A stretch of DNA of 64,000 nucleotides, from positions 622,927 through 686,926 of the forward strand of contig NZ_WTUY01000002.1 of NCBI RefSeq assembly GCF_009882945.1, read 5' to 3'. The position numbers and the translations under genes are program-made. The DNA comes from Alcanivorax sp. DP30 (GTDB taxonomy: Bacteria; Pseudomonadota; Gammaproteobacteria; Pseudomonadales; Alcanivoracaceae). Each line of letters begins with the position of its first letter. Position 1 is the first letter of the stretch. Under the pieces are notes generated by a model. That model had not been told where the DNA came from, did not search any database, and saw only the letters and a list, made by a program, of their open reading frames with translations. This document shows positions 6,086 through 54,592 of this stretch, piece by piece.

Positions 6086-6844
6086 TCAGCCTTCGGCCTT
6101 CTCGCCTTCAGCTTCGCCTTCTACCTCGACGAATTCACTCTCACCACCGGTCTGGTTCTGGGCATACTGCTTGCCTTCCAGGATGGTGTCGGCTGCCGCT
6201 TGCACGTACAGCTGAATAGCACGGATCGCATCGTCGTTACCCGGGATCACGTAGTCCACGCCATCCGGGTTTGAGTTGGTATCAACAACCGCTACAACCG
6301 GAATACCCAGCTTGCGAGCTTCCTGCAGCGCGATGTCTTCGTGATCCACGTCGATCACGAACAGGGCATCAGGCAGACCGCCCATGTCCTTGATACCGCC
6401 GATGGAGCGCTCAAGCTTGTCCATCTCACGCTTGCGCATCAGCGCTTCTTTCTTGGTCAGCTTGTCGAAAGTGCCATCCTGGGCCTGTGCTTCCAGGTCA
6501 CGATAGCGCTTGATGGACTGACGGATCGTCTTCCAGTTGGTGAGCATGCCGCCCAACCAACGGTGATCCACGTAGGGCATCCCGGCACGGGTGGCTTCGT
6601 CACGGACAGCCTTCTGGGCAGCGCGCTTGGTGCCTACGAACAGAATCTTGTTGTTGCTGGCAGCCAGCTTGTTCAGGAACGCCATGGCGTCGTTGAACAG
6701 AGGCAGGGTCTTTTCCAGATTGATGATGTGAATCTTGTTACGGGCGCCAAAGATGTAAGCATTCATCTTCGGGTTCCAGTAACGGGTCTGGTGGCCGAAG
6801 TGCACGCCGGCCTTCAGCATATCGCGCATAGTTACGCTGGACAT
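6086..6844 (-). CDS. rpsB: 30S ribosomal protein S2
   Basis: Structural protein of the small subunit, needed for S1 binding. The product begins [20 protein letters not shown], with the family [13 protein letters not shown] block. The ATG at 6844 (GGAGAA eight bases upstream) was chosen over one at 6904, giving 252 residues. The C-terminal tail is acidic ([11 protein letters not shown]). A stringent-looking promoter lies about 190 bp upstream, leaving a leader of roughly 180 nt where autoregulation by S2 could act, as known in other bacteria. Confidence 0.98.
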
Positions 6845-7029
6845 TGGTATTTCTCCACTTTGGGTTAGGCCTCCACGCCCCCGCATAAACCCAACCCGGC
6901 TCACCTTATATAAGGAAGACAGGCACCCAGGGCAATGTGACGGGGCATGTGTGATTTCCTTCCCCTGCCTCGACGGTTACAATGCAGCACCATTGCCACA
7001 GAGCACACCGAGAGCGGGAAAGCGCGCGC

Positions 7030-7058
7030 TTTATACCACAGCACCCCGCCTCAGGCAA
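7030..7058 (-). promoter_or_regulatory. sigma-70 promoter of rpsB-tsf with GC-rich discriminator
   Basis: Reading the minus strand: -35 TTGCCT (7058-7053), a 17-bp spacer and -10 TATAAA (7035-7030), followed at once by GCGCGCGC. A GC-only discriminator is typical of ppGpp/DksA-controlled ribosomal promoters. It leaves a ~180-nt 5' leader before the rpsB ATG. Map starts divergently at 7141. Confidence 0.7.
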
Positions 7059-7140
7059 CGAAAAGTCGCCTTTTTTACGCTTCTGGACAGGCACAAGAAA
7101 CAGCCAAACCACTGAAATAGCTGGAGTTTCCTCGAGTCTC

Positions 7141-7917
7141 ATGAATGTCGTTATCAAAACCCCTGAACAGATCGCCAAAATGCGTGAGGCGGGCAAGCTG
7201 GCCGCCGAAGTCCTCGAAATGATCGGCGAGCACGTCAAACCCGGGGTGACCACCGAGGAACTGGACCGCATCTGCCACGACCATATCGTCAACCGCCAGC
7301 AGGCCATCCCCGCCTGTCTGGGCTACCGCGGCTTCCCGAAATCCATCTGCACCTCGGTCAATCACGTGGTATGCCACGGCATACCCAACGACAGCAAGGC
7401 CCTGAAAAAGGGCGACATCATCAATATCGATGTGACCGTTATCAAGGATGGCTGGCACGGCGATACCTCCAAGATGTTCTATGTCGGCGAGCCCTCTGTT
7501 CTGGCCAAGCGCCTGGTGGAAACCACCCGGGAATGCATGATGGCCGGCATCAGGATGGTCAAGCCCGGCGTCACCCTGGGAGATATCGGCCACCGTATCC
7601 AGAAAATGGCCGAAGGCGAGCGCTTCTCGGTAGTCCGTGAATACTGCGGCCACGGTATCGGCGAGGGGTTCCACGAAGAGCCCCAGGTACTTCATTACGG
7701 CAAACCAGGCACCGGCATGGCCCTGGAAGAAGGCATGGTGTTCACCATTGAGCCGATGATCAATGCCGGCAAGGCCGCCAACAAACTCCTGCCTGACGGC
7801 TGGACCGTGGTCACCAAGGACCGCAAGTTGTCCGCTCAATGGGAGCACACCATTGCTGTCACCGCTGACGGCTATGAGGTCCTCACCGCCCGCGGCGAAG
7901 AAAACGACCTGTACTGA
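7141..7917 (+). CDS. map: methionine aminopeptidase type I
   Basis: Removes the N-terminal Met of nascent proteins using two metal ions. The 258-residue product has the five ligands in the usual order: Asp in NIDVTV, Asp in GWHGDTS, His in GHGIGEGFHEEP, Glu in IEPMIN and Glu in WEHTIAV. The start MNVVIKTPEQI at 7141 fits the family; an upstream in-frame ATG at 6982 would add a sequence unlike it. The start has only a distant GGAG. The gene is divergent from rpsB, a common arrangement. Confidence 0.97.
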   Translation: MNVVIKTPEQIAKMREAGKLAAEVLEMIGEHVKPGVTTEELDRICHDHIVNRQQAIPACLGYRGFPKSICTSVNHVVCHGIPNDSKALKKGDIINIDVTVIKDGWHGDTSKMFYVGEPSVLAKRLVETTRECMMAGIRMVKPGVTLGDIGHRIQKMAEGERFSVVREYCGHGIGEGFHEEPQVLHYGKPGTGMALEEGMVFTIEPMINAGKAANKLLPDGWTVVTKDRKLSAQWEHTIAVTADGYEVLTARGEENDLY

Positions 7918-7997
7918 TACATCCCGCTGATGACTGGCGCGCGTCCTGCATGGAAAGGTCGTCCGCTGTCATACAGCCTCACCATCACAGGATCCCA

Positions 7998-10670: not shown

Positions 10671-10673
10671 CCC

Positions 10674-11855
10674 ATGAATCCAGACCTGGAACGGCTGCAC
10701 CCCTACCCGTTTGAGAAACTCAAAGCGCTTTTCAGTGGCCTGCCGACCTCTGACAAGTCACCGATCGCCCTGTCCATTGGCGAGCCCAAACATCCATCCC
10801 CGGACTTTGTGCAGCAGGTGATCAAGGACAATACCGCAAGGCTGTCCAACTACCCCACTACCGCCGGCATTCCCGAACTGAGTGAATCCATCGCCCAGTG
10901 GCTAAAGCGTCGCTTCCACCTTAGCAGCATTGATGCCGCCAGCCAGGTACTGCCTGTCAACGGTACCCGCGAAGCCCTGTTTGCCTTTACCCAGGCCGTT
11001 ATCGACCGCCAACGCCAACCGCTGGTGCTGATGCCCAATCCGTTCTACCAAATCTATGAAGGCGCCAGCCTGCTGGCCGGCGGCGAACCCATGTACCTGC
11101 CCTGTACGGACAGCACCGGATTGCAGCCGGATTTCGATGCCGTCAGTGAAGATACCTGGATCCGCACCCAGCTGCTGTTTATCTGTACCCCGGGCAACCC
11201 CACCGGAGCAACGCTGAGCAAGCCCCAGCTCAAGGCGCTGATTGAGCTGGCCGACAAGTACGATTTCGTGATTGCATCCGATGAATGTTACTCGGAAATT
11301 TATCGCGACAAGCCACCTGCCGGTCTGCTGGAAGCCTGCGCCGAAATGGGCCGTCATGATTACCGCCGCTGCGTAGTCTTCCATTCGCTATCCAAGCGCT
11401 CCAACCTGCCCGGCCTGCGATCAGGCTTTGCCGCCGGAGACAGCGAAGTACTCAAGCGTTTCCTGCGCTACCGCACCTACCACGGCTGCGCCATGCCCAT
11501 TCACCACCAGCTGGCCAGCATCGCTGCCTGGAGTGATGAGACCCATGTAGAGAACAACCGCGCTCTGTACCGGCAAAAATTTGATGCTGTGCTGGACATT
11601 CTCGGTGGCCCCCTTAAGGTATCCGCCCCGGCAGCGGGCTTCTATCTGTGGCCCAAAACGCCTATCAGTGATGAAGAATTCGCCAAACGCCTTCAGGCCG
11701 AGCAGAACGTCACCGTCCTCCCCGGCCGCTACCTGTCGCGAACTGTGGACGGCAAGAACCCAGGCGAAAAACGGATAAGAATGGCGCTGGTGGCACCGCT
11801 GGAAGAATGTATTGAAGGTGCACAGCGGATCAAGGCGTTGCTGGATACGTTGTGA
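10674..11855 (+). CDS. dapC: succinyldiaminopimelate aminotransferase
   Basis: PLP-dependent class I/II aminotransferase that converts N-succinyl-2-amino-6-ketopimelate to N-succinyl-diaminopimelate in the lysine/peptidoglycan pathway. The 393 residues contain CTPGNPTGAT, the ASDECYSEIY block and the PLP lysine in HSLSKRSNLPGLRSG. The assignment to DapC rather than another aminotransferase rests on the neighbours: dapD and dapE follow, as in Pseudomonas. Confidence 0.93.
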   Translation: MNPDLERLHPYPFEKLKALFSGLPTSDKSPIALSIGEPKHPSPDFVQQVIKDNTARLSNYPTTAGIPELSESIAQWLKRRFHLSSIDAASQVLPVNGTREALFAFTQAVIDRQRQPLVLMPNPFYQIYEGASLLAGGEPMYLPCTDSTGLQPDFDAVSEDTWIRTQLLFICTPGNPTGATLSKPQLKALIELADKYDFVIASDECYSEIYRDKPPAGLLEACAEMGRHDYRRCVVFHSLSKRSNLPGLRSGFAAGDSEVLKRFLRYRTYHGCAMPIHHQLASIAAWSDETHVENNRALYRQKFDAVLDILGGPLKVSAPAAGFYLWPKTPISDEEFAKRLQAEQNVTVLPGRYLSRTVDGKNPGEKRIRMALVAPLEECIEGAQRIKALLDTL

Positions 11856-11860
11856 CATCA

Positions 11861-12034
11861 CCGTAGGAGCGTCGCTCGCGGCGCGATTCAAAACCAGGAC
11901 CAAGTACAATTTCACCACAGAGCACACAGAGGCACAGAGAAAACCCATTGTTTTATCTCAGTGAACTCTGTGGCCTCTGTGGTAAAACCGCTTTTAAATA
12001 ACGGGTTATCGCGCCGCGAGCGACGCTCCTACGG
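11861..12034. repeat. REPIN-like element with a second inverted repeat nested inside
   Basis: The outer arms 11861-11887 and 12008-12034 are a perfect 27-bp inverted repeat starting with GTAGGAGCG and ending in GCGCGAT, each arm able to fold alone. Inside, 11914-11940 and 11957-11983 form a second, imperfect inverted repeat built on ACCACAGAG. The GTAGGAGC start and inverted pairing match Pseudomonas-type REP pairs (REPINs). The element fills the gap between dapC (6 bp before it) and the ArsC-like gene. No transposase is nearby. Confidence 0.85.
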
Positions 12035-12056
12035 AAAGATTTCGAAAGGAAAGAAC

Positions 12057-12404
12057 ATGGACCTGACAATCTTCGGTATCAAGAACTGCGATACCATGAA
12101 GAAAGCCATGAAATGGCTGGATGACAACGGCATTGCCTACCACTTCCACGACTACAAGAAGGAAGGCGTGCCGGAAGCGTCGCTCAAGCAGTGGCTGGAT
12201 GCGCTGGGCTGGGAAACCGTGATCAACAAGCGCGGCACCACCTGGAAAAAACTGGACGACACTACAAAAGAGACCATGGATGCCAGCAAGGCTGTCACCG
12301 TGGCCCTGGAGAATCCGTCTATCATAAAGCGGCCGATTCTGCAGAACGACACCATTCTCACCGCCGGCTTCAAAGCCGATGAGTGGCAAGAGCTTTTGAA
12401 ATAA
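12057..12404 (+). CDS. ArsC/Spx-family protein, YffB-like
   Basis: Thioredoxin-fold protein of 115 residues (ArsC/YffB family) with a single N-terminal cysteine in FGIKNCDTMKKA, the position of the redox cysteine in arsenate reductases, and the C-terminal KRPIL block. True arsenate reductases usually sit in ars operons; this one lies between dapC and dapD. YffB homologues next to dapE are known in enterobacteria, and their substrate is not established. The ATG at 12057 has AAAGGAAAG just upstream. A real reductase activity is possible but not shown. Confidence 0.9.
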   Translation: MDLTIFGIKNCDTMKKAMKWLDDNGIAYHFHDYKKEGVPEASLKQWLDALGWETVINKRGTTWKKLDDTTKETMDASKAVTVALENPSIIKRPILQNDTILTAGFKADEWQELLK

Positions 12405-12444
12405 GCGCTCAGAAGCGCAATTTGATTTCACCAGAGAGGATCTC

Positions 12445-13479
12445 ATGAGCAACTATTTCGCCATCGCACTGGGCTGCGGCACCAAGAACCGCAACGACAA
12501 CTGGCTGGAAGTGTACTACCCGGATCCGGCCATCAACCCGGACAACAAGCTGGTTGAAGTCATTCGTGAAGAGCTGGGTTATGAAGGCGGTAACGCGGCA
12601 ATCGAACTGACGCATCGACAGATCCAGCACATTGCCCGCGAATGGCGTGAAGCCGGCTTCGAGCACGAAGCCAGCTACGCTGTGGCGTTCCAGGAATCCG
12701 AAAGCCCGGTAGTACTGACCGTACTGGAAACCGATGCCGAACCCGCTTCCACCCCCGAGGCCTACCTGAAGCTGCACCTGATTTCCCACCGCCTGGTGAA
12801 GCCCCATGGCGTCAATCTGTCCGGCATGTTCCCGCTACTGCCCAACGTGGCCTGGACCAACGAAGGCGCCGTTGATCTGGAAGAACTGCAGGAACGTCAG
12901 CTGATGGCGCGTCTGAATGGCAAAGTCCTGTCCGTGAACAGCGTGGACAAGTTCCCCAAGATGACCGACTACGTGGTACCCGCCGGCGTGCGCATCGCCG
13001 ACACCTCCCGTGTGCGTCTGGGCGCCTACGTGGGCGAAGGCACCACCATCATGCACGAAGGCTTTATCAACTTTAATGCGGGCACCGAAGGCCCGGGCAT
13101 GATCGAAGGTCGCATCTCTGCCGGCGTTTTCGTGGGCAAGGGTTCCGACATCGGCGGTGGCGCCTCCACCATGGGCACCCTGTCCGGCGGTGGCAACATC
13201 ATCATCTCCCTGGGTGAAGGCTGCCTGCTTGGCGCCAACGCGGGCACCGGTATTCCGCTGGGTGACCGCTGCACCATCGAAGCCGGCCTTTACATCACTG
13301 CCGGCTCCAAGGTCCAGCTCATGGACGACAAGGGCGAGGTTGTCGAAACCGTAAAGGCCCGCGACCTGGCCGGCAAATCCGACCTGCTGTTCCGTCGCAA
13401 CACCACCAACGGTGCCGTGCAATGCCTCACCAACAAGAGCGCCATTGCACTGAACGAAGAACTGCACAAGCATAATTAA
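12445..13479 (+). CDS. dapD: tetrahydrodipicolinate N-succinyltransferase
   Basis: Transfers succinyl from succinyl-CoA to tetrahydrodipicolinate, the step before DapC. The 344-residue form is the longer Pseudomonas/actinobacterial type rather than the ~275-residue E. coli type. The central part is a left-handed beta-helix with hexapeptide repeats (about residues 180-290), including GAYVGEGTTIMHEGFINFNA and IGGGASTMGTLSGGG. It starts 40 bp after the ArsC-like gene with AGAGGAT upstream. Confidence 0.96.
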   Translation: MSNYFAIALGCGTKNRNDNWLEVYYPDPAINPDNKLVEVIREELGYEGGNAAIELTHRQIQHIAREWREAGFEHEASYAVAFQESESPVVLTVLETDAEPASTPEAYLKLHLISHRLVKPHGVNLSGMFPLLPNVAWTNEGAVDLEELQERQLMARLNGKVLSVNSVDKFPKMTDYVVPAGVRIADTSRVRLGAYVGEGTTIMHEGFINFNAGTEGPGMIEGRISAGVFVGKGSDIGGGASTMGTLSGGGNIIISLGEGCLLGANAGTGIPLGDRCTIEAGLYITAGSKVQLMDDKGEVVETVKARDLAGKSDLLFRRNTTNGAVQCLTNKSAIALNEELHKHN

Positions 13480-13530
13480 CGCAACACGCGGCACGCTTCA
13501 CGCAACATGCTGGCGTGCCGCCTATTTTCT

Positions 13531-13606
13531 GTAGGAGCACCTCTTGAGGTGCGAACAAGGCCGGGTTGAACCTCGGGCGGGTTCGCACCTCGAGAGGTGC
13601 TCCTGC
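13531..13606. repeat. REPIN-like inverted repeat between dapD and dapE
   Basis: Arms 13531-13556 and 13581-13606 are 26-bp inverted repeats (two mismatches) starting GTAGGAGCACCTC, each with its own small stem (CACCTC/GAGGTG). This is the same GTAGGAGC family as at 11861. A single half-copy of this subtype (GTTCGCACCTCAAGAG) lies at 18224-18239, after the aaeB-like gene. Confidence 0.85.
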
Positions 13607-13638
13607 AGCTGCCCTGAACCACCGCTACTGGAAGATTC

Positions 13639-14778
13639 ATGTCCCGCACTCTCGACTACACCAAGGAACTCATTCGCCGCGCGTCCGTGACTCCCGAGGA
13701 CGAAGGCTGTCAGGACTGGATGATCGAAAAGCTGGAAGCCCTGGGCTTTCAGTGTGAAACCCTGTGGTTCGAGGAAGTGCGTAACCTGTGGGCCCGACGT
13801 GGCACCGAAGGGCCGGTGTTTGCCTTTGCCGGTCACACCGATGTGGTGCCCACTGGAGATATATCTGCCTGGAAGTACGATCCCTTTACTCCCACCGAGG
13901 AAGGCGATCTGCTGTACGGCCGCGGCACTGCGGACATGAAAGGTTCCATCGCCGCCATGATGGTGGCCATCGAGGACTTTGTGGCCGCCAACCCGGATCA
14001 TCCCGGCAGCCTGGCCCTGCTGATCACCGCCGATGAAGAAGGCCCGTCCGTGAACGGTACTGTCAAGGTAGTGGAGACCCTGCAGGCGCGCAACGAGCAC
14101 ATCGACTACTGTCTGGTGGGCGAACCCTCCTCTACCGACACCGTAGGCGACGTGATCAAGAATGGTCGTCGTGGTTCACTGGGCGCCAAGCTGGTGGTCA
14201 AGGGGATCCAGGGCCATGTGGCCTACCCCCACCTGGCCCGCAACCCGGTGCACGATGCCGCTCCGGCACTGGCTGAACTGGCCGCTGCTGAATGGGATCA
14301 GGGCAACGAATTCTTCCCCGCCACCAGCTTCCAGATCTCCAACATCAACGCCGGCACCGGCGCTACCAACGTGATTCCCGGCACCTGCGAAGTAATTTTC
14401 AACTTCCGTTTTTCCACCGAGCTCACTGACGCCATCCTGCGCGAGCGCACCGAGGCGATCCTCCAAAAGCACGGGCTGGATTACGACTTGACCTGGACCC
14501 TGTCCGGCCAACCGTTCCTCACCGACCGTGGCGCCCTGGTAGATGCCACCGTGGACGCCATCCGTGACGTCACCGGCAAGGAAACGGAGCTTTCCACTGC
14601 CGGGGGTACCAGCGACGGTCGCTTCATTGCGCCCACCGGCAGCCAGGTGGTTGAACTCGGCCCTACCAATGCCACCATCCACAAGGTGGACGAACACACC
14701 AGCATCAGCGAACTGGAGACCCTGACGAAGATCTACAGCCGACTGCTGGAAAATTTGATGGGAACAACTCACGCCTGA
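13639..14778 (+). CDS. dapE: succinyl-diaminopimelate desuccinylase
   Basis: Di-zinc M20 hydrolase that releases succinate from N-succinyl-LL-diaminopimelate, giving LL-DAP for lysine and peptidoglycan. The 379 residues carry the metal-binding [11 protein letters not shown] (about 65-75), [10 protein letters not shown] and the catalytic ITADEEGPS block, and a C-terminal TSDGRFIA segment. It completes the dapC-dapD-dapE set, though a REPIN separates it from dapD. Confidence 0.97.
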
Positions 14779-14821
14779 CGCAAGAAAGCCCGCCCGGTGA
14801 TCCAGGCGACTGCGAGGCAGG

Positions 14822-15034
14822 AATTTCGAGTTGCGAGAAACGAGTTTCGAAAGGCAAAACCTCAAACCTCGTGCCGGGTTGTTGTTTTGGGATTCTGGAA
14901 ACTCGTGACTCGCAACTCGCTTCTGTAATCCTTACCTCGCCAAGGCTCGGATCGCGAGCAGGCTCGTTATTCGCTTCGCTCACCCTTCGGGCCAGCCTTC
15001 GGCTGTTACCTCCGTTACACTCCGGTTCCTACAG
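14822..15034. repeat. dispersed inverted-repeat element (TCGAGTTGCGAG family)
   Basis: Arms 14827-14848 and 14898-14919 form a 22-bp inverted repeat with two mismatches (CGAGTTGCGAG..ACGAGTTTC). A tail follows (14933-14995: CTCGCCAAGGCTCGGATCGC, then TTATTCGCTTCGCTCACCC). The same arm recurs at 36594 and 55500, and the tail recurs at 55444-55497 in the opposite orientation. Short reading frames through it look alike between copies because the DNA is repeated, not because of a protein family. Confidence 0.8.
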
Positions 15035-15086
15035 CCACATCCAAATATCCGCTACCATGTCTGGACGTTATTAACCGGGAACTACA

Positions 15087-15287
15087 ATGTGGCTCCATGA
15101 AATTCCCGTTGGCGGGTTGCTGGTCAGTCCCATGGTGCTGTTTGTGCTGGTGGCTCTGACATGCACGGCGGCCAGCGGGTTGCTGCTGCGGCAACTGGGC
15201 TGGCATCGGGCCATCTGGAAAGGCCCCTGGTTTTATCTCTCACTTTTTGTCTGCTACCTGGCCCTGACGCTGGGCCTGATGAGCTGA
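15087..15287 (+). CDS. DUF1656 small membrane protein, AaeX-like
   Basis: A 66-residue protein with two membrane helices (about 12-32 and 46-64) and the N-terminal EIPVGGLLVSP typical of the DUF1656 family. Such proteins precede or follow the periplasmic adaptor of aromatic-acid efflux pumps; their exact role is unknown. It lies 13 bp before the adaptor gene, giving the same order as enterobacterial aaeX-aaeA-aaeB. Confidence 0.88.
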   Translation: MWLHEIPVGGLLVSPMVLFVLVALTCTAASGLLLRQLGWHRAIWKGPWFYLSLFVCYLALTLGLMS

Positions 15288-15300
15288 GGACCCACGGACC

Positions 15301-16134
15301 ATGTCACAACCCCTTCGCATTCTGCTCACCGTAGCCGTAGTGGTACTGGCCATCATCGCTGGCAACTGGATCTGGAATTACTATCTCTACGCACCCTGGA
15401 CCCGCGACGGCAAGGTGCGCGCGCAGATCATTACCCTGTCGCCGGATGTCTCTGGCTGGATTTCCGAACTGCCGGTCCACGACAATCAGGCCGTAAGCAG
15501 TGACAGCCTGTTGCTGCGAATCGACCCACAGCGCTATCAGGCCGCGGCGTCCCAGGCCCGTGCCAGATTGGAAGTAGCCCAGACCCGCCTCGCCATGGCA
15601 GAACTGCAGCGTGAAAAGGCTTCCGGCGAAACCCGGCAGCAAGCTTCGCTGGAAGTAAAACTGGCCAGCGCCGATCTGGACATGGCCCGCGCCGAACTCA
15701 CCACCGCAGAACTGGATTTGCAGCGCACGGAAGTGCGTGCCCCGGCCGACGGTACGGTGGTCAATCTAACACTCCAGAAGGGCAATTTTGCCGAGCGTGG
15801 CATCCCGGTACTCTCCATGGTCAAGGCAGGGAGCTTCTACGTTACCGGCTATTTTGAAGAAACCAAGCTGCCGTTGGTGCACATCGGCCAACGCGCTACC
15901 GTGGTACTGATGAACGGCGCCCATAGCCTGCAGGGGAAGGTCACCAGCGTGGGCCAGGCTATCGCCAACGCCAACACCCGGACTGATCAGCAGTTGCTCC
16001 CGGAAGTGCAGCAGACTTTCAACTGGGTGCGGCTGGCACAGCGCATCCCCGTGCATATCGAGCTGGACAGTATTCCGGATGACATTCTTCTGGCCGCCGG
16101 CATGACTGCCACCGTCCGCCTGCATGACGATTAA
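15301..16134 (+). CDS. HlyD-family periplasmic adaptor, AaeA-like
   Basis: Periplasmic adaptor of an efflux pump, anchored by one N-terminal helix (about 5-25). It has the barrel-lipoyl half motifs (GWISELPVHDNQAVSSDSLL and VRAPADGTVVNLTLQKGNF) around a coiled-coil hairpin (about 80-135) rich in Ala, Gln and Arg. Its 277 residues are at the short end of the family. It overlaps the FUSC gene by 11 bp, so pump parts are made together. The substrate is unknown; aromatic carboxylic acids are the guess from AaeAB. Confidence 0.9.
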   Translation: MSQPLRILLTVAVVVLAIIAGNWIWNYYLYAPWTRDGKVRAQIITLSPDVSGWISELPVHDNQAVSSDSLLLRIDPQRYQAAASQARARLEVAQTRLAMAELQREKASGETRQQASLEVKLASADLDMARAELTTAELDLQRTEVRAPADGTVVNLTLQKGNFAERGIPVLSMVKAGSFYVTGYFEETKLPLVHIGQRATVVLMNGAHSLQGKVTSVGQAIANANTRTDQQLLPEVQQTFNWVRLAQRIPVHIELDSIPDDILLAAGMTATVRLHDD

Positions 16135-18220
16135 CCCGAAACTCGCCGCTATCCTGACCCCGGACAGACGTTCGGTAATCTTCGCCTGCAAGGGTATTCT
16201 CAGCATGGCGCTGGCCCTGTTTCTGGCCATGCATCTGCAGCTGGAACGCCCCTACTGGGCCTTGATTTCAGCGGTATTCCTGCAGATACGTCCGGAAACC
16301 GGACTGGTGATTGAAAAAGGAATTTGCCAGATCGGTGGCACCCTCATCGGGGGGGCTGTCGGCCTGCTTATTCTGGCCTGGCTTCTCCCCTACCCGGTGC
16401 TGGCCATTGCCGCCCTGACACTGTGGATCGGCCTGAACGCCGGTGCCTCAGCCTGGGTACGGCAGGCCAATTTTATCTATGGCTTCGCCATGGCCGGGGT
16501 CACCGCCACATTGATTGTGGTGATCCCTATTGCCAACCCTGATGCAACTTCCAGCATCGGCATTTTTCATGTGGCCACGGCACGGGTCAGTGAAATCATC
16601 CTCGGCGCCGTGTGCGCTACCCTGGTCAGCAATCTGCTCTGGCCTGCTCGTGTCGAAGGCCTGCTGCGCAGCCATGCCCGTAATGCGCTCAATCAGACCC
16701 TCGCCTATCTGGAACTGGAGCTGGACCCTACCGGCACCCATCACCGCCGACACAGTCAGGTGGACAGCCTGCTTCAGGACATCTTCGCTCTCAGCGATGA
16801 CAGCTCCGCCGTGACCTACGAAGGGAGCCAGGGGCCTGGCCGCGCCCGCGCAGCCACCCTGATTTGCCACAAGACCCTGTCACTGGTGGCGCGCATCAGA
16901 GTGATCGGCCGGCTGATGCGCTACCACGATGACCTGATGACCGATGAAATGCGCAAATTGTTGGCGGTATTGCGCACTGCCTTCACTGCCATGCGCGAGA
17001 CCACTTCCGCCGAGCAGGCCATGCAGGAAGCCCAGGCCCTGCGCCGCTACCTGAAACAGGCACGCCAGGAACAGTCCGAGGATGCAGCGCCGCTGCAACG
17101 GCGCCTCTTCCTTGTCGCCCGCAATCTCACCAGTGATCTGATTCTCGCCCTGGAGGCCAACCGGGCGCTTTATTCCGTAGAGGAGATGCAGCTGCGAGCC
17201 CCCACCCTGAAGCCCTATCGAGACTGGCAGGTGGCCACCGCCGTGGGCCTTCGCAGCGCCCTGGTATTTGTCATCGCCAGCACCCTCTGGATTGGCACCG
17301 CCAGCCCGATGGCGATCATGCTGATGGTCATGCCGGTGATCTTTACCATCATGTTTGCCCGGCTTGCGGAGCCGGATAAAGTGCTCAAACGCGCCACCAT
17401 CACCTCGACACTGGCGGGCCCGGTGGCGCTGTTTCTGACTTTGCCGCTGCTTTCCATGGCCAACCACAATTTTCTGTTGCTGATTCTCGGACTAGCCGGG
17501 CCCATCTTTGTGGCACTGCTGGCCATCAGCAAGCGAGAAACGCTGCCCTATGGTCTTGGCTTCTGCACGCCATTCATCATTCTGGTTCAACCAGGCACCC
17601 AGATGGACTTCGACATCACCCGGGTGGCCAGCAATGCCCTTGCCATCACCCTCGGGCTCTTCCTGGCCTTCATGATGTTCCGTCTGATCACGCCTCCCAA
17701 CGGCCCCGGCCTTCGGCGCCGGCTGGTGCGCGACACCGCCATCGACCTGCATACCCTGCTGGGCCGACCTGCCAACCTTCGCGAAGAATGGCTCAACTCG
17801 CGCATGGCGGACCGGCTGCGCTGGCTCACGGTCTGTGACAAGGCTTTGCCTGAATCACGCCGCCACTACACGGATCTTGGGCTTACCGGCCTGAATCTGG
17901 GGCAGGTGTCGCTGTGGATACACAGTCGTATTCCGGCCCAGCCCACGGATGCCTTGCGCTCTGCCGCTGCAGACTGGCAGCACGCCCTGGCCTCGGCTTA
18001 TCAATTGTCTGCCTTCGGCGCCACGGACCTGCGCTTTGAGCAGGCATCCAACGCCCTGCTCGCCGCCATGGAAGGCACCCCTTCCATCACTTACCGTCAA
18101 CGCCAACAAATCGCCGGTGCACTGGAACGCATCAACCTGACCTTCCCGCGGCTGGCGGAACGCCTGGGTGCTGACTGGCAGCCCGAAGAAGTGCCCACAG
18201 CTTCGGACCTGACCTCCTGA
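16124..18220 (+). CDS. FUSC-family inner-membrane efflux transporter, AaeB-like
   Basis: Inner-membrane transporter of 698 residues with the two-block FUSC layout: six helices near the N-terminus (about 20-180) and a second cluster near 370-525, each followed by a cytoplasmic helical region. PYWALISAVFLQIRPETG near the start is typical. With the DUF1656 protein and the HlyD adaptor it makes an AaeXAB-type system. No aaeR-like regulator is adjacent; the upstream gap holds only repeat DNA. Confidence 0.9.
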   Translation: MTINPKLAAILTPDRRSVIFACKGILSMALALFLAMHLQLERPYWALISAVFLQIRPETGLVIEKGICQIGGTLIGGAVGLLILAWLLPYPVLAIAALTLWIGLNAGASAWVRQANFIYGFAMAGVTATLIVVIPIANPDATSSIGIFHVATARVSEIILGAVCATLVSNLLWPARVEGLLRSHARNALNQTLAYLELELDPTGTHHRRHSQVDSLLQDIFALSDDSSAVTYEGSQGPGRARAATLICHKTLSLVARIRVIGRLMRYHDDLMTDEMRKLLAVLRTAFTAMRETTSAEQAMQEAQALRRYLKQARQEQSEDAAPLQRRLFLVARNLTSDLILALEANRALYSVEEMQLRAPTLKPYRDWQVATAVGLRSALVFVIASTLWIGTASPMAIMLMVMPVIFTIMFARLAEPDKVLKRATITSTLAGPVALFLTLPLLSMANHNFLLLILGLAGPIFVALLAISKRETLPYGLGFCTPFIILVQPGTQMDFDITRVASNALAITLGLFLAFMMFRLITPPNGPGLRRRLVRDTAIDLHTLLGRPANLREEWLNSRMADRLRWLTVCDKALPESRRHYTDLGLTGLNLGQVSLWIHSRIPAQPTDALRSAAADWQHALASAYQLSAFGATDLRFEQASNALLAAMEGTPSITYRQRQQIAGALERINLTFPRLAERLGADWQPEEVPTASDLTS

Positions 18221-46983: not shown

Positions 46984-49020
46984 ATGACCTGGTTGAAATC
47001 CCGCCGCTTGCAGTACCTGTTGGCCATCACCGCCTTGTTTTTCGGGCTGATGGTTATACTGCGCGCGACCTTTTACTTTGGCTTTTCTGAAGTTCCCTCC
47101 TCGCCTGAAGTGGATCAGGAAGCCGTAAACGCGGCCCTTGGAGTAGGCCTTCGCTTCGACCTTCGCCTCGCCTTGCTGATGATGCTGCCGTTGGCTGCAC
47201 TGGCTTATCTGCCTCGCATAAACCTGCTGACCAGCGGCTTCATGCGCTTCCTGGCACACAGCTATCTGATCATTGCGCTGGTGCTGCTGGGACTCAGCTA
47301 TATTTTCGATTTTGGCCACTACGCCTACCTGGGTGAACGCCTGAATGTCACGGCGTTGCGCTTCCTGCAGGACACCCGCGATTCCACCCTGATGGTATGG
47401 GAAAGTTATCCTGTCATCTGGATCACTCTGGGGCTGATACTGACGGTTGCGCTGAGTGTCTGGCTTGCCCGGGTGATCGAGCGAAAGACGCTGCTACGCG
47501 CCCCCGCTGGCATTTCCCTGCTTCAGACCACCATCGGTTTTGTGGTTTGCTTTGCCCTGTTTTTCTTTGCCATTCTGGGCCGGGTCACCAACATCAACAT
47601 CCTGAACCCAATCCCCCTGCGCTGGAGCGAAGCCTTCGTTTCCGGCGACCGGGCCATCGGTGCACTGGGCCTGAACCCGGTACTTTATTTCCGCGACACC
47701 CTCCTGATTCCGGTCTCACCCTTTGACAAGCAACAGGTCGCCAACTATTACCCGCTCATGGCCGAGCACCTGGGCATTCCCGACGATCAACAACGGGATC
47801 TTAACTTTGTCCGCACGGTGGATGAGCAGGGCCACAAACTGGACTACGATCGCGCACCCAATGTGGTAGTGGTCATGCTGGAGTCCCTCGGCGCCAGCCG
47901 GGTCAGCAGCTACGGACTCCCCATCGAAAGCACCCCCAATCTGGATCGTCTCGGTCGTGAAGGCTGGTTCTTCAGGAATTTCTATGTACCAGTCACCGGC
48001 ACCGCCAAAACCATCTGGGCAACCTTTACCGGTATCCCCGATGTTGCACCCACGGAAAGCGCAAGCCGCAACCCGTTGACCAGCCATCAGCGCATGGTCC
48101 TCAACGAATTTGAAGGCTACCGCAAGTTCTACTTCATTGGTGGTAACGCCGGCTGGGCCAACCTGGATGGTCTGGTGCAACAGAGCATCGATGGCCTTGA
48201 TCTACGCCAGGAAGGCGACTGGCAGTCTCCGGATGTGGATGTCTGGGGCATCTCCGATCTAAACCTTTTCCGCGAGAGCAATCAGATCCTTAATGATCTG
48301 GACAATGACAAACCCTTTTTTGCCTTTATCCAGACTGCCGGCAACCACCGGCCGTTCACGATTCCGGACAACAACGGCGATTTCACGCCGCGTAACGACC
48401 TTTCAGAGGAAGAGCTGGCAAAACACGGCTTCCGGAGTAACGCCCAGTACAACGCGGTGCGTCTGCTGGACTACAACGTGGGCGAATACATGAAATGGGC
48501 CAGGGAAAGCGATTACTTCGACAACACGATTTTCGTGTTCTTTGGCGATCACAACAATCGCATCACCTCACTGCCCCATATGCCGGCCATGGACGCCCTT
48601 GGCCTGGAAAGCAACCATGTGCCACATATCATCTATAGTCCCCACTACCTCAAGCCACGGGTGATTGATGACGCGGTTGGCCTGGTAGATGTGATGCCCA
48701 CCGTAGCTGGCCTGCTGGGCCTCAACTACCGCAACACGACCCTGGGCCGGGATATACAGATGTCTGCACCGGAAGGTGAGCGCGCCAACTTTGTGGTGTT
48801 ACTGGAAGGCCCTCACCCGGTCTATGGCATGGTCACCAAGGATTACTTTGTCCGCATGAACGACGACGGCAGCAATGCTACCCTGCATGACCTGCATAGC
48901 AAGACGCCCAAACAGGACGTGTCAGAGCAGCACCCTGACGTCTTTAAGCAGTTGTTCGATCTGGCGCGCGCCCAATACGAAACAGCTCGTTACATGATGT
49001 ACGACAACGTGGATGATTGA
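46984..49020 (+). CDS. LtaS-family phosphoglycerol transferase-like sulfatase-fold protein
   Basis: Membrane protein of 678 residues: five helices (about 10-210) and a periplasmic sulfatase-fold domain (about 290-640). Metal and nucleophile blocks are VVVMLESLGASR, the VTGTAKT turn (about 337-343) carrying the Thr nucleophile, and VFFGDHNNR. The fold is that of lipoteichoic acid synthase and of Gram-negative MdoB-type phosphoglycerol transferases, so decoration of periplasmic glucans or other glycans with phosphoglycerol is likely. The substrate cannot be read. Confidence 0.9.
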   Translation: MTWLKSRRLQYLLAITALFFGLMVILRATFYFGFSEVPSSPEVDQEAVNAALGVGLRFDLRLALLMMLPLAALAYLPRINLLTSGFMRFLAHSYLIIALVLLGLSYIFDFGHYAYLGERLNVTALRFLQDTRDSTLMVWESYPVIWITLGLILTVALSVWLARVIERKTLLRAPAGISLLQTTIGFVVCFALFFFAILGRVTNINILNPIPLRWSEAFVSGDRAIGALGLNPVLYFRDTLLIPVSPFDKQQVANYYPLMAEHLGIPDDQQRDLNFVRTVDEQGHKLDYDRAPNVVVVMLESLGASRVSSYGLPIESTPNLDRLGREGWFFRNFYVPVTGTAKTIWATFTGIPDVAPTESASRNPLTSHQRMVLNEFEGYRKFYFIGGNAGWANLDGLVQQSIDGLDLRQEGDWQSPDVDVWGISDLNLFRESNQILNDLDNDKPFFAFIQTAGNHRPFTIPDNNGDFTPRNDLSEEELAKHGFRSNAQYNAVRLLDYNVGEYMKWARESDYFDNTIFVFFGDHNNRITSLPHMPAMDALGLESNHVPHIIYSPHYLKPRVIDDAVGLVDVMPTVAGLLGLNYRNTTLGRDIQMSAPEGERANFVVLLEGPHPVYGMVTKDYFVRMNDDGSNATLHDLHSKTPKQDVSEQHPDVFKQLFDLARAQYETARYMMYDNVDD

Positions 49021-49381: not shown

Positions 49382-50101
49382 TTACCATTCAACATCGGGT
49401 AACTGTGCGAATGCATCACGCAACCCCTTGGACCAGGCGTCTCCCAAAGCACGGAAATTTGTGTCTTCATTGGTCACATCATGGTGGTTGGACAGATCAA
49501 AACTATTACTGCGGTAGATCAATACATCCAGCGGCAGGCCAACCGAAAGATTGGAACGGATCGTGGAGTCCAGACTGATCAAGGCACATTTCGCTGCATC
49601 CTTGAGAGGCAACTGGTAATCCACTACCCGGTCCAGAATGGGCTTGCCGTATTTGATTTCACCAATCTGGAAGTACGGTGTGTCCGGGGTGCTCTCGATG
49701 AAATTACCTTCCGGATAAATTTGGAAAAGACGGTGGCTCTCACCATGAAGTTGTCCGCCAACAATAAAGCTGCTGCCAAAGTCCACATTACCCTGGCTCT
49801 GACCCGCATCGCGGCGAATGACTTCGCGGCAGGTACTGCCCACGATCGTGGCAACCTCATACATGGAACGAGCCCCGAACAAATTGGGCTGGTCACTATT
49901 GAGACGCATGTTAAGCAGACTGATCACACTCTGGGTAGTCGCCAGATTCCCTGCACTGAGAATGACGATCGCTCGCTCGCCGTCAATCATGAACTTGTGC
50001 AATTTCCGGAAGGTAGCAATCTGGTCTACTCCGGCATTGGTGCGCGAGTCCGCCGCAAATACCACCCCTTTTTCCAGGGACATGGCGACGCAATAGGTCA
50101 T
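49382..50101 (-). CDS. Anbu proteasome-like peptidase
   Basis: A 239-residue Ntn-hydrolase of the Anbu (ancestral beta-subunit, BPH) family, related to HslV and the 20S proteasome. The Met is followed by the nucleophile Thr2 (MTYCVAMSLE); FAADSRTNAG and FRKLHKF carry the Asp and Lys of the active site. Known Anbu proteins form open helical assemblies and their substrates are undefined. It is the last gene of a four-gene set with ATP-grasp, alpha-E and transglutaminase-like proteins, 31 bp after the last. Confidence 0.95.
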   Translation of the reverse strand: MTYCVAMSLEKGVVFAADSRTNAGVDQIATFRKLHKFMIDGERAIVILSAGNLATTQSVISLLNMRLNSDQPNLFGARSMYEVATIVGSTCREVIRRDAGQSQGNVDFGSSFIVGGQLHGESHRLFQIYPEGNFIESTPDTPYFQIGEIKYGKPILDRVVDYQLPLKDAAKCALISLDSTIRSNLSVGLPLDVLIYRSNSFDLSNHHDVTNEDTNFRALGDAWSKGLRDAFAQLPDVEW

Positions 50102-50132
50102 TCCTGGCTACTCCTGTGATTATCCATGCCGA

Positions 50133-50927
50133 TCACTGCATGCGTTCGGACACAGTACGGTTGACCTGTGCCACTGCCTCCAGCGACTCGACGCCACCGC
50201 CGAAGCGTACACCACGGACCGGACAGGCATCCATATAATCCATCCCCACCGCCAGCTTCAAATGGTGCCGAGGGCGACAGGTCTGATTGGTGATATCGAA
50301 GGTCTTCCAGCTGTCATCCTGCCAGACTTCCGCCCAGGCATGACTGGCCACATGTTCGGAGTCCTTGCTGTACAGATAACCACTCACATAGCGGGCTGGC
50401 ATGCCCAGCGCCCGGCAGCAAGCCAGGAACACATGGGTATGGTCCTGACATACCCCCTTACCCAGTTTCCAGGCTTCCCGAGCGTTACTGGCTACACTGG
50501 TGATTCCTGGCGTATAGGGCATTCCCTGCAGGATAGACTCACTCAGGCGTTCCAGTTGCATCCCGCCGGCCCCATCATGTCGATGGGCCAGCTCATCCAG
50601 GGATTCATTGGACTCGGTGAGAACGGTCGGCCGCGTGAACACCAGCGGCGACAAACGATGATCGCTGTCCTCACCGTCTTCATCGGTGATTTCCACAACT
50701 CCCCTCACTGTAAGAGCAATCTGCTGATGAGGCTTGTCCAGCGTCAGAACGTGAAGGATGTTGTTGTAGCCATCCGATCCCTCATCTGCTTGTTCCGGCA
50801 AATCCAGTTCCCAGCTTAGTACCCGTTGCCGAGCAGAAGGTCGTGGCGTAAGTCGCAGATACTGGGTGCTATGTTTTACCCGCTCTGAATAGCGGTATTC
50901 CGTGCTGTGTTCGATGGACAGTTTCAT
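50133..50927 (-). CDS. transglutaminase-like cysteine protein
   Basis: A 264-residue protein with an N-terminal transglutaminase N domain (about 1-85; EHSTEYRYSERVKHSTQYLR) and a core domain. The catalytic triad is Cys in GKGVCQDHTH (about 160), His in HAWAEVW (about 205) and Asp in FDITN (about 220). Such proteins may act as peptidases or amide-forming enzymes; the context suggests peptide ligation or removal. It overlaps the alpha-E gene by 4 bp. Confidence 0.93.
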   Translation of the reverse strand: MKLSIEHSTEYRYSERVKHSTQYLRLTPRPSARQRVLSWELDLPEQADEGSDGYNNILHVLTLDKPHQQIALTVRGVVEITDEDGEDSDHRLSPLVFTRPTVLTESNESLDELAHRHDGAGGMQLERLSESILQGMPYTPGITSVASNAREAWKLGKGVCQDHTHVFLACCRALGMPARYVSGYLYSKDSEHVASHAWAEVWQDDSWKTFDITNQTCRPRHHLKLAVGMDYMDACPVRGVRFGGGVESLEAVAQVNRTVSERMQ

Positions 50928-51853
50928 ACCAGCTCCAGATATTCGCTTTGAATGGTGTCCGCCAGCTCATTGATGCGGCGGAGGAAGTCCGTCAGATAAT
51001 CGTGCAGACCAATATCGAGAATATGCTCCATGTCGCCGTACTGGAGTCGGGCCAGCTGTACGGCAGCCAGCCGCTTCGACTGCAACCCCGCATCGCCCTC
51101 AATGGCCGGTAACAACTCACACAGCATTTGCAGACAGGACAACAGCGAGCGCGGTACTTCTGGACGCAGGATCAGCATTTCTGCCACGCGCTCGCCATTG
51201 ATGGTTTCACTGAACATTTCCCGGAATGCTTCATAGGCCCCCACCGAACGCAACAGCGCATGCCAGCGGTAATAGTCCAGCGTGGTATTGGATTCGAGCT
51301 GGCCCTCGCTGTGCTTCACATCCAGAATCCGCGCAGTGTTGTCGGCCCTTTCAATAAAAGTTCCCAGACGCAGAAAACGGAAGGTATCGCTTCGCATCAG
51401 CGTACCGTAGGTGGCCCCCCGGAAAAGATGCGAGCGATTCTTTACCCACTCGAAGAACGCGGTTTCCCCGTAGGCCTGAAGCCCGGTCTGGCTAATTTCC
51501 TTTAGTTCCAGCCAGGTGCTATTGATGCTTTCCCACATCTCGCCGGTGATCTTGCCACGCACCGCATGGGCGCTGGCGCGGGCCTGACGCAGGCAGGAAT
51601 AGATGCTTGCAGGACTGTCCGGGTCCAGCGTAAAGAAGAAAAGTACATTCTGAACGGTGACCTTTCCGTAGCGAGAACCGTAGTGATCGCCGGTACCGGT
51701 AATGGCCAGCGGTGCCGCAATTTCCGCCTGAATATCCACTGCAAAGCGGATCAGCGACAGGTTCCATACCACGTCCAGCATTCGCGCTGTGTTTTCCGCG
51801 CGTTCGAAATTACGGGATAGCCAGTAAAGGTCAGAAGCGGTACGACTCAGCAT
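50924..51853 (-). CDS. alpha-E domain protein
   Basis: All-helical protein of 309 residues (DUF403), beginning MLSRTASDLYWLSRNFERAENTAR, the family's hallmark. It has no known enzymatic residues. Alpha-E proteins occur with the circularly permuted ATP-grasp as a fixed pair. It overlaps that gene by 7 bp and the transglutaminase gene by 4 bp. Confidence 0.94.
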   Translation of the reverse strand: MLSRTASDLYWLSRNFERAENTARMLDVVWNLSLIRFAVDIQAEIAAPLAITGTGDHYGSRYGKVTVQNVLFFFTLDPDSPASIYSCLRQARASAHAVRGKITGEMWESINSTWLELKEISQTGLQAYGETAFFEWVKNRSHLFRGATYGTLMRSDTFRFLRLGTFIERADNTARILDVKHSEGQLESNTTLDYYRWHALLRSVGAYEAFREMFSETINGERVAEMLILRPEVPRSLLSCLQMLCELLPAIEGDAGLQSKRLAAVQLARLQYGDMEHILDIGLHDYLTDFLRRINELADTIQSEYLELV

Positions 51854-53292
51854 GGACAGTCCTCCCCGCTTTCCAGCACCCAGGTATCCTTGGTGCCACC
51901 ACCCTGGGAAGAGTTCACCACCAGGGACCCGGATTTCATGGCCACCCGCGTCAGTCCGCCGGGCACCACTCTGGTATCGTTGCCGCTCAACACAAAGGGC
52001 CGCAGATCAATGTGACGGGGCGCAATGCCCTCTTCTACAAAGATCGGGCAGGAGGACAGGGAAAGCGTGGGTTGGGCGATATAATTACCCGGATTCGCCA
52101 GCAGGCGAGCCCGGAACATGTCGATCTCCGCCTGACTGGCCGCAGGTCCCACCAGCATGCCGTAACCTCCAGCACCGTGAACCTCCTTGACCACCAGCTT
52201 CGGCAATTGATTCAGCACCTCTTTCAGGTCATCAGGCTTTCGGCATTGCCAGGTGGGCACGTTATGCAGAATGGGCTCTTCATCGAGATAGAAACGGATC
52301 ATGTCCGGCACATAGGGATAGATGGACTTGTCATCGCCCACCCCGGTGCCCACCGCGTTGGCCAGCACAACATTACCCTGCCGATACACTGACAAGAGCC
52401 CTGGCACGCCGAGCATGGAATCGGAACGGAACGCCAGCGGATCGAGAAAATCATCATCAATACGCCGATAGATCACATCCACACGCTGCGGCCCGGCCGT
52501 GGTTCGCATATAAACGAAGCCGTCTTTCACAAACAGGTCTGCCCCTTCCACCAGTTCAATACCCATCTGCTGGGCCAGGAAGGCATGCTCGAAGTAGGCA
52601 CTGTTGAACTGTCCCGGCGTCAGCAACACTACCGTGGGGTTGGCGTAACTGGCGCTCTGCTGCAAGGTTTCCAGCAGCAGGCTGGGATAATGCTCCACCG
52701 GCGCCACGGTCTGTTCCGCAAATAGCTCCGGGAAAAGCCGCATCATCATTCGCCGATTTTCGATCATGTAACTCACCCCGGAGGGGGTGCGAAGATTATC
52801 TTCCAGTACATACCAGTCGCCCTCTCCGTCACGGATCAGATCCACGCCACTGATATGGGAATACACCTGATTGTGCAGATCCACATCCTGCATACAGGGC
52901 TGATACTGGCTGTTGCCGAAGATCTGTTCGGCGGGGATGCGACCATCACGGATGATATTCTGGTCGTGGTAGATATCGTGGAGAAAAAGATTGAGCGCGT
53001 TGACGCGCTGGATTGTGCCACGTTCCAGCAAGTCCCATTCGCTGGCAGGGATCACCCGAGGCAGGGTATCAAACGGAATCAGCCGCTCGGTGCCGCTGTC
53101 TTCACCGTAAACATTAAAGGTGATTCCTACCCGATGAAACTGTAGTTCTGCTTCCTTTCGCTTGCGTTGTAACAGGCTTCGGTCCTGTCGCAGCAACCAG
53201 TCATGATAACTCCTGTAGTGAGGCCGCACCCCACCGCCGGGCGCTATCATTTCGTCGAAACCGGACACCGCCGGCAACTTTAATGACCGCAT
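51847..53292 (-). CDS. circularly permuted ATP-grasp protein
   Basis: A 481-residue protein of the DUF404/DUF407 type with a circularly permuted ATP-grasp fold. GVDLIRDGEGDWYVLEDNLR and PSGVSYMIENRRMM hold the nucleotide- and metal-binding residues expected of an amide/peptide ligase. The acceptor and donor are unknown. The ATG at 53292 (AAGGA seven bases upstream) is preferred over 53328. It is the first gene of the cluster, about 180 bp from the divergent decayed FAD gene. Confidence 0.93.
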   Translation of the reverse strand: MRSLKLPAVSGFDEMIAPGGGVRPHYRSYHDWLLRQDRSLLQRKRKEAELQFHRVGITFNVYGEDSGTERLIPFDTLPRVIPASEWDLLERGTIQRVNALNLFLHDIYHDQNIIRDGRIPAEQIFGNSQYQPCMQDVDLHNQVYSHISGVDLIRDGEGDWYVLEDNLRTPSGVSYMIENRRMMMRLFPELFAEQTVAPVEHYPSLLLETLQQSASYANPTVVLLTPGQFNSAYFEHAFLAQQMGIELVEGADLFVKDGFVYMRTTAGPQRVDVIYRRIDDDFLDPLAFRSDSMLGVPGLLSVYRQGNVVLANAVGTGVGDDKSIYPYVPDMIRFYLDEEPILHNVPTWQCRKPDDLKEVLNQLPKLVVKEVHGAGGYGMLVGPAASQAEIDMFRARLLANPGNYIAQPTLSLSSCPIFVEEGIAPRHIDLRPFVLSGNDTRVVPGGLTRVAMKSGSLVVNSSQGGGTKDTWVLESGEDCPC

Positions 53293-53470
53293 GGCGTATT
53301 CCTTGGTCCTGAAGCACACTACAGGCATGCCCCTGTAAGCACTTCAGCAAGTCCTGTGCCAGAATGAGCATAGCGACAATGCCATTTGAGCCGTGGCACG
53401 AACCGCAAAGTTCCAAAACAGGGCATAACCAGATACATGGGGCTGAATACGCCCAAATCCGGGCAGAGAA

Positions 53471-54434
53471 ATGGAATCCGTCGAGACTGTAATCATTGGC
53501 GCCGGTGTGGTCGGCCTGGCACTGGCCAGGGCACTCTCCCCCACCCGTTCGGTGGTGGTGCTGGAACAGGAGGCCCACACCGGCACACACCTCTCTTCAC
53601 GAAACAGCGAAGTCATTCATGCCGGCCTGTATTACCCGCCAGGCTCGCTCAAGGCCCGCCTGTGCCTGCAAGGCAGTCAAATACTGTATCGCTACTGTGA
53701 AAAGACAGGAGTCCCATTTCGACGCTGCGGCAAACTGCTGGTCGCCCAGGCAGGACAGGAAGCACAACTTGAGGCGCTGCATCTCAACGCAAATGCGAAC
53801 GGTGTGGAAGGTCTTGCCTGGTTGCCCCGCACACAATGGCAGCAGGATGAGCCGTGGCTGAATGCCAGCCAAGTGCTGCACAGCCCCCATACCGGTATCA
53901 TCGACAGCCATGGTCTGATGGTGCAACTGCAACGGGACGCGGAACAGAACGGCGCAGTGATCAGCCTGCGGCATCGCGTTAGCACCATTCACTGCGAACC
54001 CCGCCGCTTTACCCTCACTGTAATAGACAGTGAGGGCCAATCCTTTCCGCTGCGTAGTCAACAGCTGATCCTTGCCGGAGATCCACGGCCTCGGCATCCA
54101 TCTCACCGTGGATCTTGCAGGTCAGGCCCGCTTCGGCCCGGATGTGGAATGGATCAGCCACACTCTCCCTCCGGACTATCAGAGCAACAGAGATCGCAAG
54201 GCCGACTTCCTGGACGCTATCCGCCAGTACTGGCCCGATGTGGACGCCACACGCTTACACCCCAGCTACGCAGGCATAAGGCCCAAGCTTTATTACAATG
54301 GCAACCCGTTATCGGATTTCCTGATCCAGGGAGAAGACCATCATGGCCTCAAGGGGATGATCAATCTACTCGGCATAGAGTCGCCGGGACTCACCGCAGC
54401 ACTTGCCATTGCAGAAGACCTGCGGGCGCAATGA
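53471..54434 (+). pseudogene. FAD-dependent oxidoreductase (LhgO-like) with internal deletion and frameshift
   Basis: The first ~202 codons encode an FAD-binding domain (VIIGAGVVGLALARAL, EAHTGTHLSSRNSEVIHAGLYY) like L-2-hydroxyglutarate dehydrogenase/LhgO proteins. The frame then runs into a different sequence after LILA. The C-terminal part (from [16 protein letters not shown] to an end at 54434) continues in the +1 frame. About 45-60 residues usually between these blocks are missing. The junction has CTTGCCGGAG, suggesting a microhomology deletion. Without its middle the protein should be inactive. Confidence 0.85.
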
Positions 54435-54592
54435 GGTTAAAGAAATGTCTGTTGCGGTAGATGCTCATGCTTGCATGGACGATTAACGGCTTGAGCAAAA
54501 AATTGAAAGCGCAAACGCCCAGAGTTCGGGGCAAAATACTTGCAGGCTGCGCCAACCTTTCGTCGAGTTAAACGTTGAGCTTTCCCATTTTC

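Follow-up and report, generated by a model that had tools for sequence, protein, structure and literature searches.

What is the proteasome-like protein Anbu for, and under which condition does a cell call on it? The available sections of PMC5666114, PMC6376114 and PMC8665760 leave its function open. We addressed the question with a four-gene operon in a 64,000-nucleotide stretch of Alcanivorax sp. DP30 (contig NZ_WTUY01000002.1, positions 622,927 to 686,926; hereafter the window). The locus is almost certainly a standard copy of the known Anbu operon, and its strongest functional clue, missed in a preliminary description of the DNA, is a conserved nitrogen-starvation promoter. Judged from its sequence, the operon is very probably under nitrogen-starvation control. 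Its parts are as follows.

51847-53292, minus strand: circularly permuted ATP-grasp ligase (CP_ATPgrasp_2), 481 amino acids, first gene of the operon (open reading frame (ORF), Pfam, likeness to 3n6x)
50924-51853, minus strand: Alpha-E protein, 309 amino acids, all-helical (Pfam, internal duplication, AlphaFold2 model)
50133-50927, minus strand: transglutaminase-like protein with C160/H196/D211 (Pfam, likeness to 3isr, residue conservation)
49382-50101, minus strand: Anbu, a proteasome-like N-terminal nucleophile (Ntn) hydrolase with T2/D18/K33 (Pfam, solved Anbu chains, residues)
53347-53361, minus strand: sigma-54 promoter element TGGCACAGGACTTGC (-24/-12), 10 of 10 consensus positions (match to TGGCAC-N5-TTGC)
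53293-53470, no strand: 178-base-pair (bp) region between genes, which holds the promoter and is common to a divergent, broken L-2-hydroxyglutarate oxidase-like gene

The sigma-54 consensus, TGGCAC-N5-TTGC, was set beforehand from general knowledge of such promoters. It has a single exact match in the window, at 53347-53361, and 54 bases separate this match from the ATG of the ATP-grasp gene at 53292. Sites that score 8 to 10 of 10 are present in all 23 close in-line operons from the same family and order (L060 to L082), and the spacer letters vary among these sites. For a wider count, sites were accepted up to 200 bp upstream, and the control consisted of the regions ahead of the remaining genes (ORFs of at least 200 amino acids) in these loci. 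A site of at least 9 of 10 was found for 52 of 81 in-line Anbu operons, compared with 5 of 614 control regions and with a shuffle expectation for the 81 operons of 0.88 on average and 4 at most over 50 rounds. These 52 divide into 25 of 30 near relatives and genomes of the class (the window included) and 27 of 51 named genomes, and 46 of them start 26-82 bp ahead of the predicted gene start. Named carriers include Serratia, Pantoea, Erwinia, Aeromonas, Marinobacter, Roseateles, Paraburkholderia and Methylophilaceae; among Pseudomonas with the complete operon, three out of four carry the site.

Of 51 sequences, 14 hold the dyad GCAC-N7-GTGC in the 200 bp ahead of the sigma-54 site; shuffling gave 0.5 on average and 2 at most. 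The same dyad at spacings N2-N6, N8 and N9 occurred in 0 or 1 of the 51, and 4 of 255 control windows held the N7 form. A palindromic matrix built from the dyad sequences reads CGCACCATAATGGTGCG, which is the NtrC consensus. By this matrix, 23 of the 37 sequences lacking a perfect dyad scored p<0.05 against their own shuffles, some of these held-out sequences being closely related to the training sequences or to each other. In the window, the matrix gave one further feature.

53409-53425, minus strand: weak NtrC-like element, located 64 bp ahead of the -24 box (matrix)

The same 64-bp offset is that of the top matrix match in five loci of the same genus (L060, L061, L064, L065 and L066).

The genome of the strain holds 15 exact sigma-54 sites, against 6 for a reversed control pattern. 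Seven of the 15, that of the Anbu operon included, sit 33-249 bp ahead of a same-strand gene start, and some of these (L227, L228, L231) are at the same time inside short or antisense open frames. Behind the other six are genes for a NarK-type nitrate/nitrite transporter, rpoN, allophanate hydrolase, a putative urea ATP-binding cassette (ABC) substrate-binding protein, a response regulator (NasT-like by eye) and a substrate-binding protein (nitrate-type by eye); the putative urea-binding protein alone was scanned at full length and scored above a curated cut-off, the remainder having been scanned over their first 300 residues or given general matches only. An eighth candidate (L220) is followed 125 bp on by a 225-amino-acid ORF and lies within an upstream frame, another site (L232) has only a 79-amino-acid ORF, and six further sites fall inside long open frames.

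For single species, among them Pseudomonas putida, nitrogen control of the operon has already been published. According to the available portions of the respective papers, PP_2685-2688 were termed likely NtrB/NtrC-controlled, citing Hervas 2009 (PMC7801951), and PP2685-2687 were raised 6.6- to 11.1-fold on nitrogen limitation in the first of two columns (PMC3325844). PP_2688 and PP_2685 rose on nitrate (log2 3.99 and 4.44); of the promoters, the one ahead of PP_2688 showed a 3.7-fold induction upon nitrogen depletion, and those of PP_2685 and glnK acted as constitutive (PMC8050072). The P. putida genes represent the same operon type, in which the promoter ahead of the ATP-grasp gene responds to nitrogen (PMC7801951, PMC8050072); the window has a perfect -24/-12 element, but its NtrC-like element is weak. 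In Burkholderia cenocepacia, a related cluster belongs to the NtrC regulon, and mutation of ntrC lowered its expression 6.0- to 9.4-fold (PMC5491218). That cluster, I35_5080-5083, combines DUF404/407 (ATP-grasp), DUF403 (Alpha-E) and transglutaminase under NtrC/sigma-54, and, unlike the window, includes a large protein with a transglutaminase domain; the main text of PMC5491218 does not use the word "proteasome". A predicted RpoN site also lies ahead of a Bradyrhizobium CP_ATPgrasp gene (PMC13207237). Our literature search did not find conservation of nitrogen control across beta- and gammaproteobacterial Anbu operons stated.

Several observations weigh against control through this promoter. 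A site of 9 of 10 is missing from 29 of the 81 in-line operons and, within 200 bp, from six of the seven named alphaproteobacterial in-line loci (Aquamicrobium, two Mesorhizobium, Nitratireductor, Pseudophaeobacter and two Hyphomicrobium), and only 5 of 26 operons with a divergent Anbu gene possess one. Lowering the threshold to 8 of 10 brings the count to 65 of 81 in-line operons, but 34 of 614 control regions then score as well. When operons were clustered by ligase identity, the site was present in at least half of the members in 34 of 59 clusters at 90% and 22 of 37 at 80%, but in under half of the clusters at 70% (7 of 15). The NtrC site of the window is not significant, the top match having p 0.175 and lying outside 53409-53425. 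In P. putida, an rpoN mutant still showed induction of PP_2686-2688 (14- to 20-fold) and of the urt genes, and PP_2685, which encodes Anbu, was nearly unchanged in the wild type (1.12), as reported in the accessible part of PMC7801951; the induction in the rpoN mutant disfavours a strict sigma-54 requirement. On the whole, we propose that upon exhaustion of ammonium, NtrC-activated sigma-54 RNA polymerase would transcribe all four genes from 53347-53361, a step supported by sequence here and by experiment in P. putida. For experiments on the Anbu operon, the conserved promoter points to nitrogen starvation as the condition of choice.

Which proteins, then, would be made under this condition? 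The genes follow the order ATP-grasp, Alpha-E, transglutaminase, Anbu, all in one direction, as in the Anbu operon of the literature. The ATP-grasp start at 53292 has AAGGA a little upstream, and an in-frame ATG at 53328 is an alternative start. Pfam assigned the ATP-grasp protein to CP_ATPgrasp_2 (E 1.9e-167), the Alpha-E protein to Alpha-E (E 7.7e-92), the transglutaminase to Bact_transglu_N (1.6e-22) and Transglut_core (3.7e-19), and Anbu to Proteasome (E 1.7e-9). In NCBIfam, the ATP-grasp, Alpha-E and transglutaminase proteins matched no model, and Anbu matched only archaeal proteasome models far under cut-off. Among solved structures, sequence comparison linked the ATP-grasp protein to 3n6x (E 9e-216), the transglutaminase more distantly to 3isr (6e-11), and Anbu to five chains, the best being the designed Anbu 5loy (3e-89) and the others 5nyw, 5lox, 5nyj and 5nyf (top natural one 5e-88). 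Each of Alpha-E, circularly permuted (CP) ATP-grasp and Anbu has a single match in the whole 3.62 Mb genome.

The Anbu of the window shares 80% identity with its counterpart in Alcanivorax sp. DSM 26293 (L140) and 53-59% with those of three Pseudomonas loci (L154, L165, L174). The Yersinia bercovieri and Pseudomonas Anbu operons have the same four families, order and Anbu active site, as described in the available text of PMC6376114 and PMC5666114; apart from the host, an Alcanivorax-type genus, we found no further difference between them and the window.

The active sites are also in place. Of 159 full-length rows, which include two duplicated loci, 157 retain the Anbu precursor residues T2/D18/K33 (T1/D17/K32 in the mature protein); the two deviating rows (L086 and L087) are relatives of about 30% identity in which the lysine is shifted. 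The N-terminus of Anbu reads MTYC..., from which exposure of Thr1 after removal of Met1 is predicted. In 77 transglutaminase rows chosen by length, strand and identity above 33%, C160 is conserved in 76, H196 in 74 and D211 in all. The genetic part of the preliminary description was thus borne out: the ORF positions and Pfam returned four intact genes with the coordinates listed above, overlaps of 7 and 4 bases and a gap of 31 bases; the families and their prior linkage were correctly named (Pfam; published Anbu operons); and the Cys/His/Asp triad of the transglutaminase and Thr2 of Anbu, accompanied by D18 and K33, are indeed intact.

The ligase pair, Alpha-E and CP-ATP-grasp, can occur without Anbu, and Anbu rarely occurs without the pair. 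Three samples, which share some genomes, were compared. Among 57 relatives, Alpha-E was present in all 27 Anbu genomes. In the class sample of 232 genomes, Alpha-E and CP-ATP-grasp occupied an identical set of 70, and Anbu occurred in 60, alongside Alpha-E in 58; the two exceptions, from one genus (G076, G207), have partial Anbu matches. In the phylum sample of 299 genomes, Alpha-E accompanied Anbu in 113 of 115, and 58 genomes had Alpha-E without Anbu. Within the genus of the window (17 genomes, G000-G016), the distribution of the operon is patchy: Anbu and Alpha-E occur together in nine genomes and are both absent from eight, as if the operon came or went as a whole. A natural single-chain fusion of CP-ATP-grasp and Alpha-E, 852 amino acids long, occurs in L176. 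In that locus (6617-16638, Comamonadaceae), the fusion stands in one row with an in-line set of ATP-grasp, Alpha-E and Anbu, a transglutaminase-DUF2126 amidoligase and another transglutaminase. In five Acinetobacter loci (L173, L204, L206, L209, L212), tblastn gave no Alpha-E match (0 of 5); a short 212-amino-acid protein takes the Alpha-E slot in L206 (7564-8202), its ER motif lost as judged by eye.

Alpha-E itself consists of two diverged copies, residues 1-150 and 151-309, each of which bears the motif ER(A)(E/D)NTAR (residues 17-24 and 168-175). A single profile comparison of the halves aligned 136 columns with a probability of 99% and E 3.4e-18, and as single sequences they also align (E 7e-5). 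The AlphaFold2 model is all-helical with a mean predicted local distance difference test (pLDDT) score of 92.7, and it places the motifs in helices spanning residues 3-33 and 156-184. No solved structure matched Alpha-E by sequence up to E 10, and no convincing fold relative was found. The literature searched, which did not extend to the primary paper of the family (Iyer 2009), gave no prior description of the duplication.

What might these proteins do together? On balance, the operon is best read as an amide ligase/hydrolase module of nitrogen starvation. The ATP-grasp enzyme, as one unit with Alpha-E, would activate a carboxylate by adenosine triphosphate (ATP) and couple it to a peptide or amine. 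The resulting amide would then be hydrolysed or transferred by two enzymes, the transglutaminase-like protein with its catalytic cysteine and the Anbu ring with its threonine nucleophile; in this way the cell would conjugate, process and recycle nitrogenous material. We put forward this ligase-then-hydrolase chemistry tentatively. The preliminary description also had Anbu and the transglutaminase act on the ligase product; of this proposal, the partnership fits the rarity of Anbu without the pair, and the chemistry stays conjectural. A bolder version appears doubtful as a whole: Alpha-E, pseudo-symmetric with its two ER motifs, and ATP-grasp might form one machine that presents an amine or peptide, with Anbu cleaving the ligase product rather than general proteins, in an NtrC-controlled conjugate-and-recycle system dedicated in beta- and gammaproteobacteria.

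From the available text of published work, the Yersinia ATP-grasp protein liberates phosphate from ATP (PMC6376114), and Anbu relatives assemble as split rings or lock-washers (PMC5666114, PMC6376114). Set against the module are the reports that the Anbu proteins assayed gave no peptidase activity (Piasecka et al., PMC6376114) and that no specific complex was found among the Yersinia operon proteins (PMC6376114), together with two genomes of one genus (G369 and G518) that have a full-length Anbu and neither ligase gene; the genomes with partial Anbu (n=2) lack the pair as well. In G518, the Anbu gene (L235, 4258-5001) adjoins genes that look by eye like those of a folate pathway. The near-obligate ligase partnership makes the ligase product worth seeking as an Anbu substrate, and with regulation and partnership better defined, the old question on Anbu becomes testable under a defined condition.

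Among the alternatives, a small-molecule route survives best and is rather unlikely in our judgement: the ligase would conjugate an amine and the hydrolases would free it, scavenging or storing nitrogen. Analogues are the glutathionylspermidine synthetase/amidase and the gamma-glutamyl-amine pathways, the former pairing an ATP-grasp amide ligase with an amide hydrolase as the operon does, with different hydrolase families. The nearest solved structure, 3n6x, is annotated as a putative glutathionylspermidine synthase, but this name is an annotation and not an assayed activity, and the likeness of the operon to glutathionylspermidine synthetase is limited to the sequence likeness to 3n6x. The promoter type is common to nitrate and urea genes, but the four genes include no oxidase or dehydrogenase. 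In marine metagenomes, the domains of the operon are clustered with those of urea metabolism, according to PMC3597751.

Anbu could instead be a self-standing protease that boosts protein turnover under nitrogen shortage, the ligase genes sharing the promoter and doing a separate job. We consider this unlikely. Its proteasome fold family and catalytic triad would fit, as would the suitability of protein turnover for nitrogen-starvation control and the full-length Anbu of G518 and G369 without the pair; Fuchs et al. 2017 (PMC5666114), in the text available, favour a protease role, proteasome inhibitors being reported to bind Anbu and degradation being preferred. But Anbu is rarely found without the ligase pair in any of the three samples (27/27, 58/60 and 113/115 genomes with it), which argues against a free-standing protease, the assays of Piasecka et al. 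found no peptidase activity, and by Pfam none of the four genes encodes an unfoldase. Protein tagging, a proposal reported in PMC6376114 in which the ligase adds a peptide tag and Anbu degrades the tagged proteins or strips the tag in a ubiquitin- or Pup-like manner, is the least likely. Ligase and peptidase families side by side, their co-occurrence and the fit of bulk recycling to starvation control speak for it; against it stand the absence of an unfoldase among the four genes, the lack of a specific complex in Yersinia and flanks in which no conserved small tag gene was seen.

Those flanks were examined for the co-occurring small peptide gene that the preliminary description had suggested. 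In the window and eight loci of the same genus, small ORFs in the 300 bp that follow Anbu were compared by eye, and none was seen to be conserved; for the 178-bp upstream gap, small ORFs were listed in the window only. Beyond the operon, an LtaS/sulfatase-family gene (46984-49020, plus strand) is convergent with Anbu and is shared by seven of the loci L060-L067 from the same genus; in the eighth, L062, the contig ends. On the other side, the divergent L-2-hydroxyglutarate oxidase-like gene (53471-54460, plus strand) is broken, its frame shifting after about residue 200 with a stretch missing. Its relative in L061 (7079-8212) is intact in one frame of 377 amino acids.

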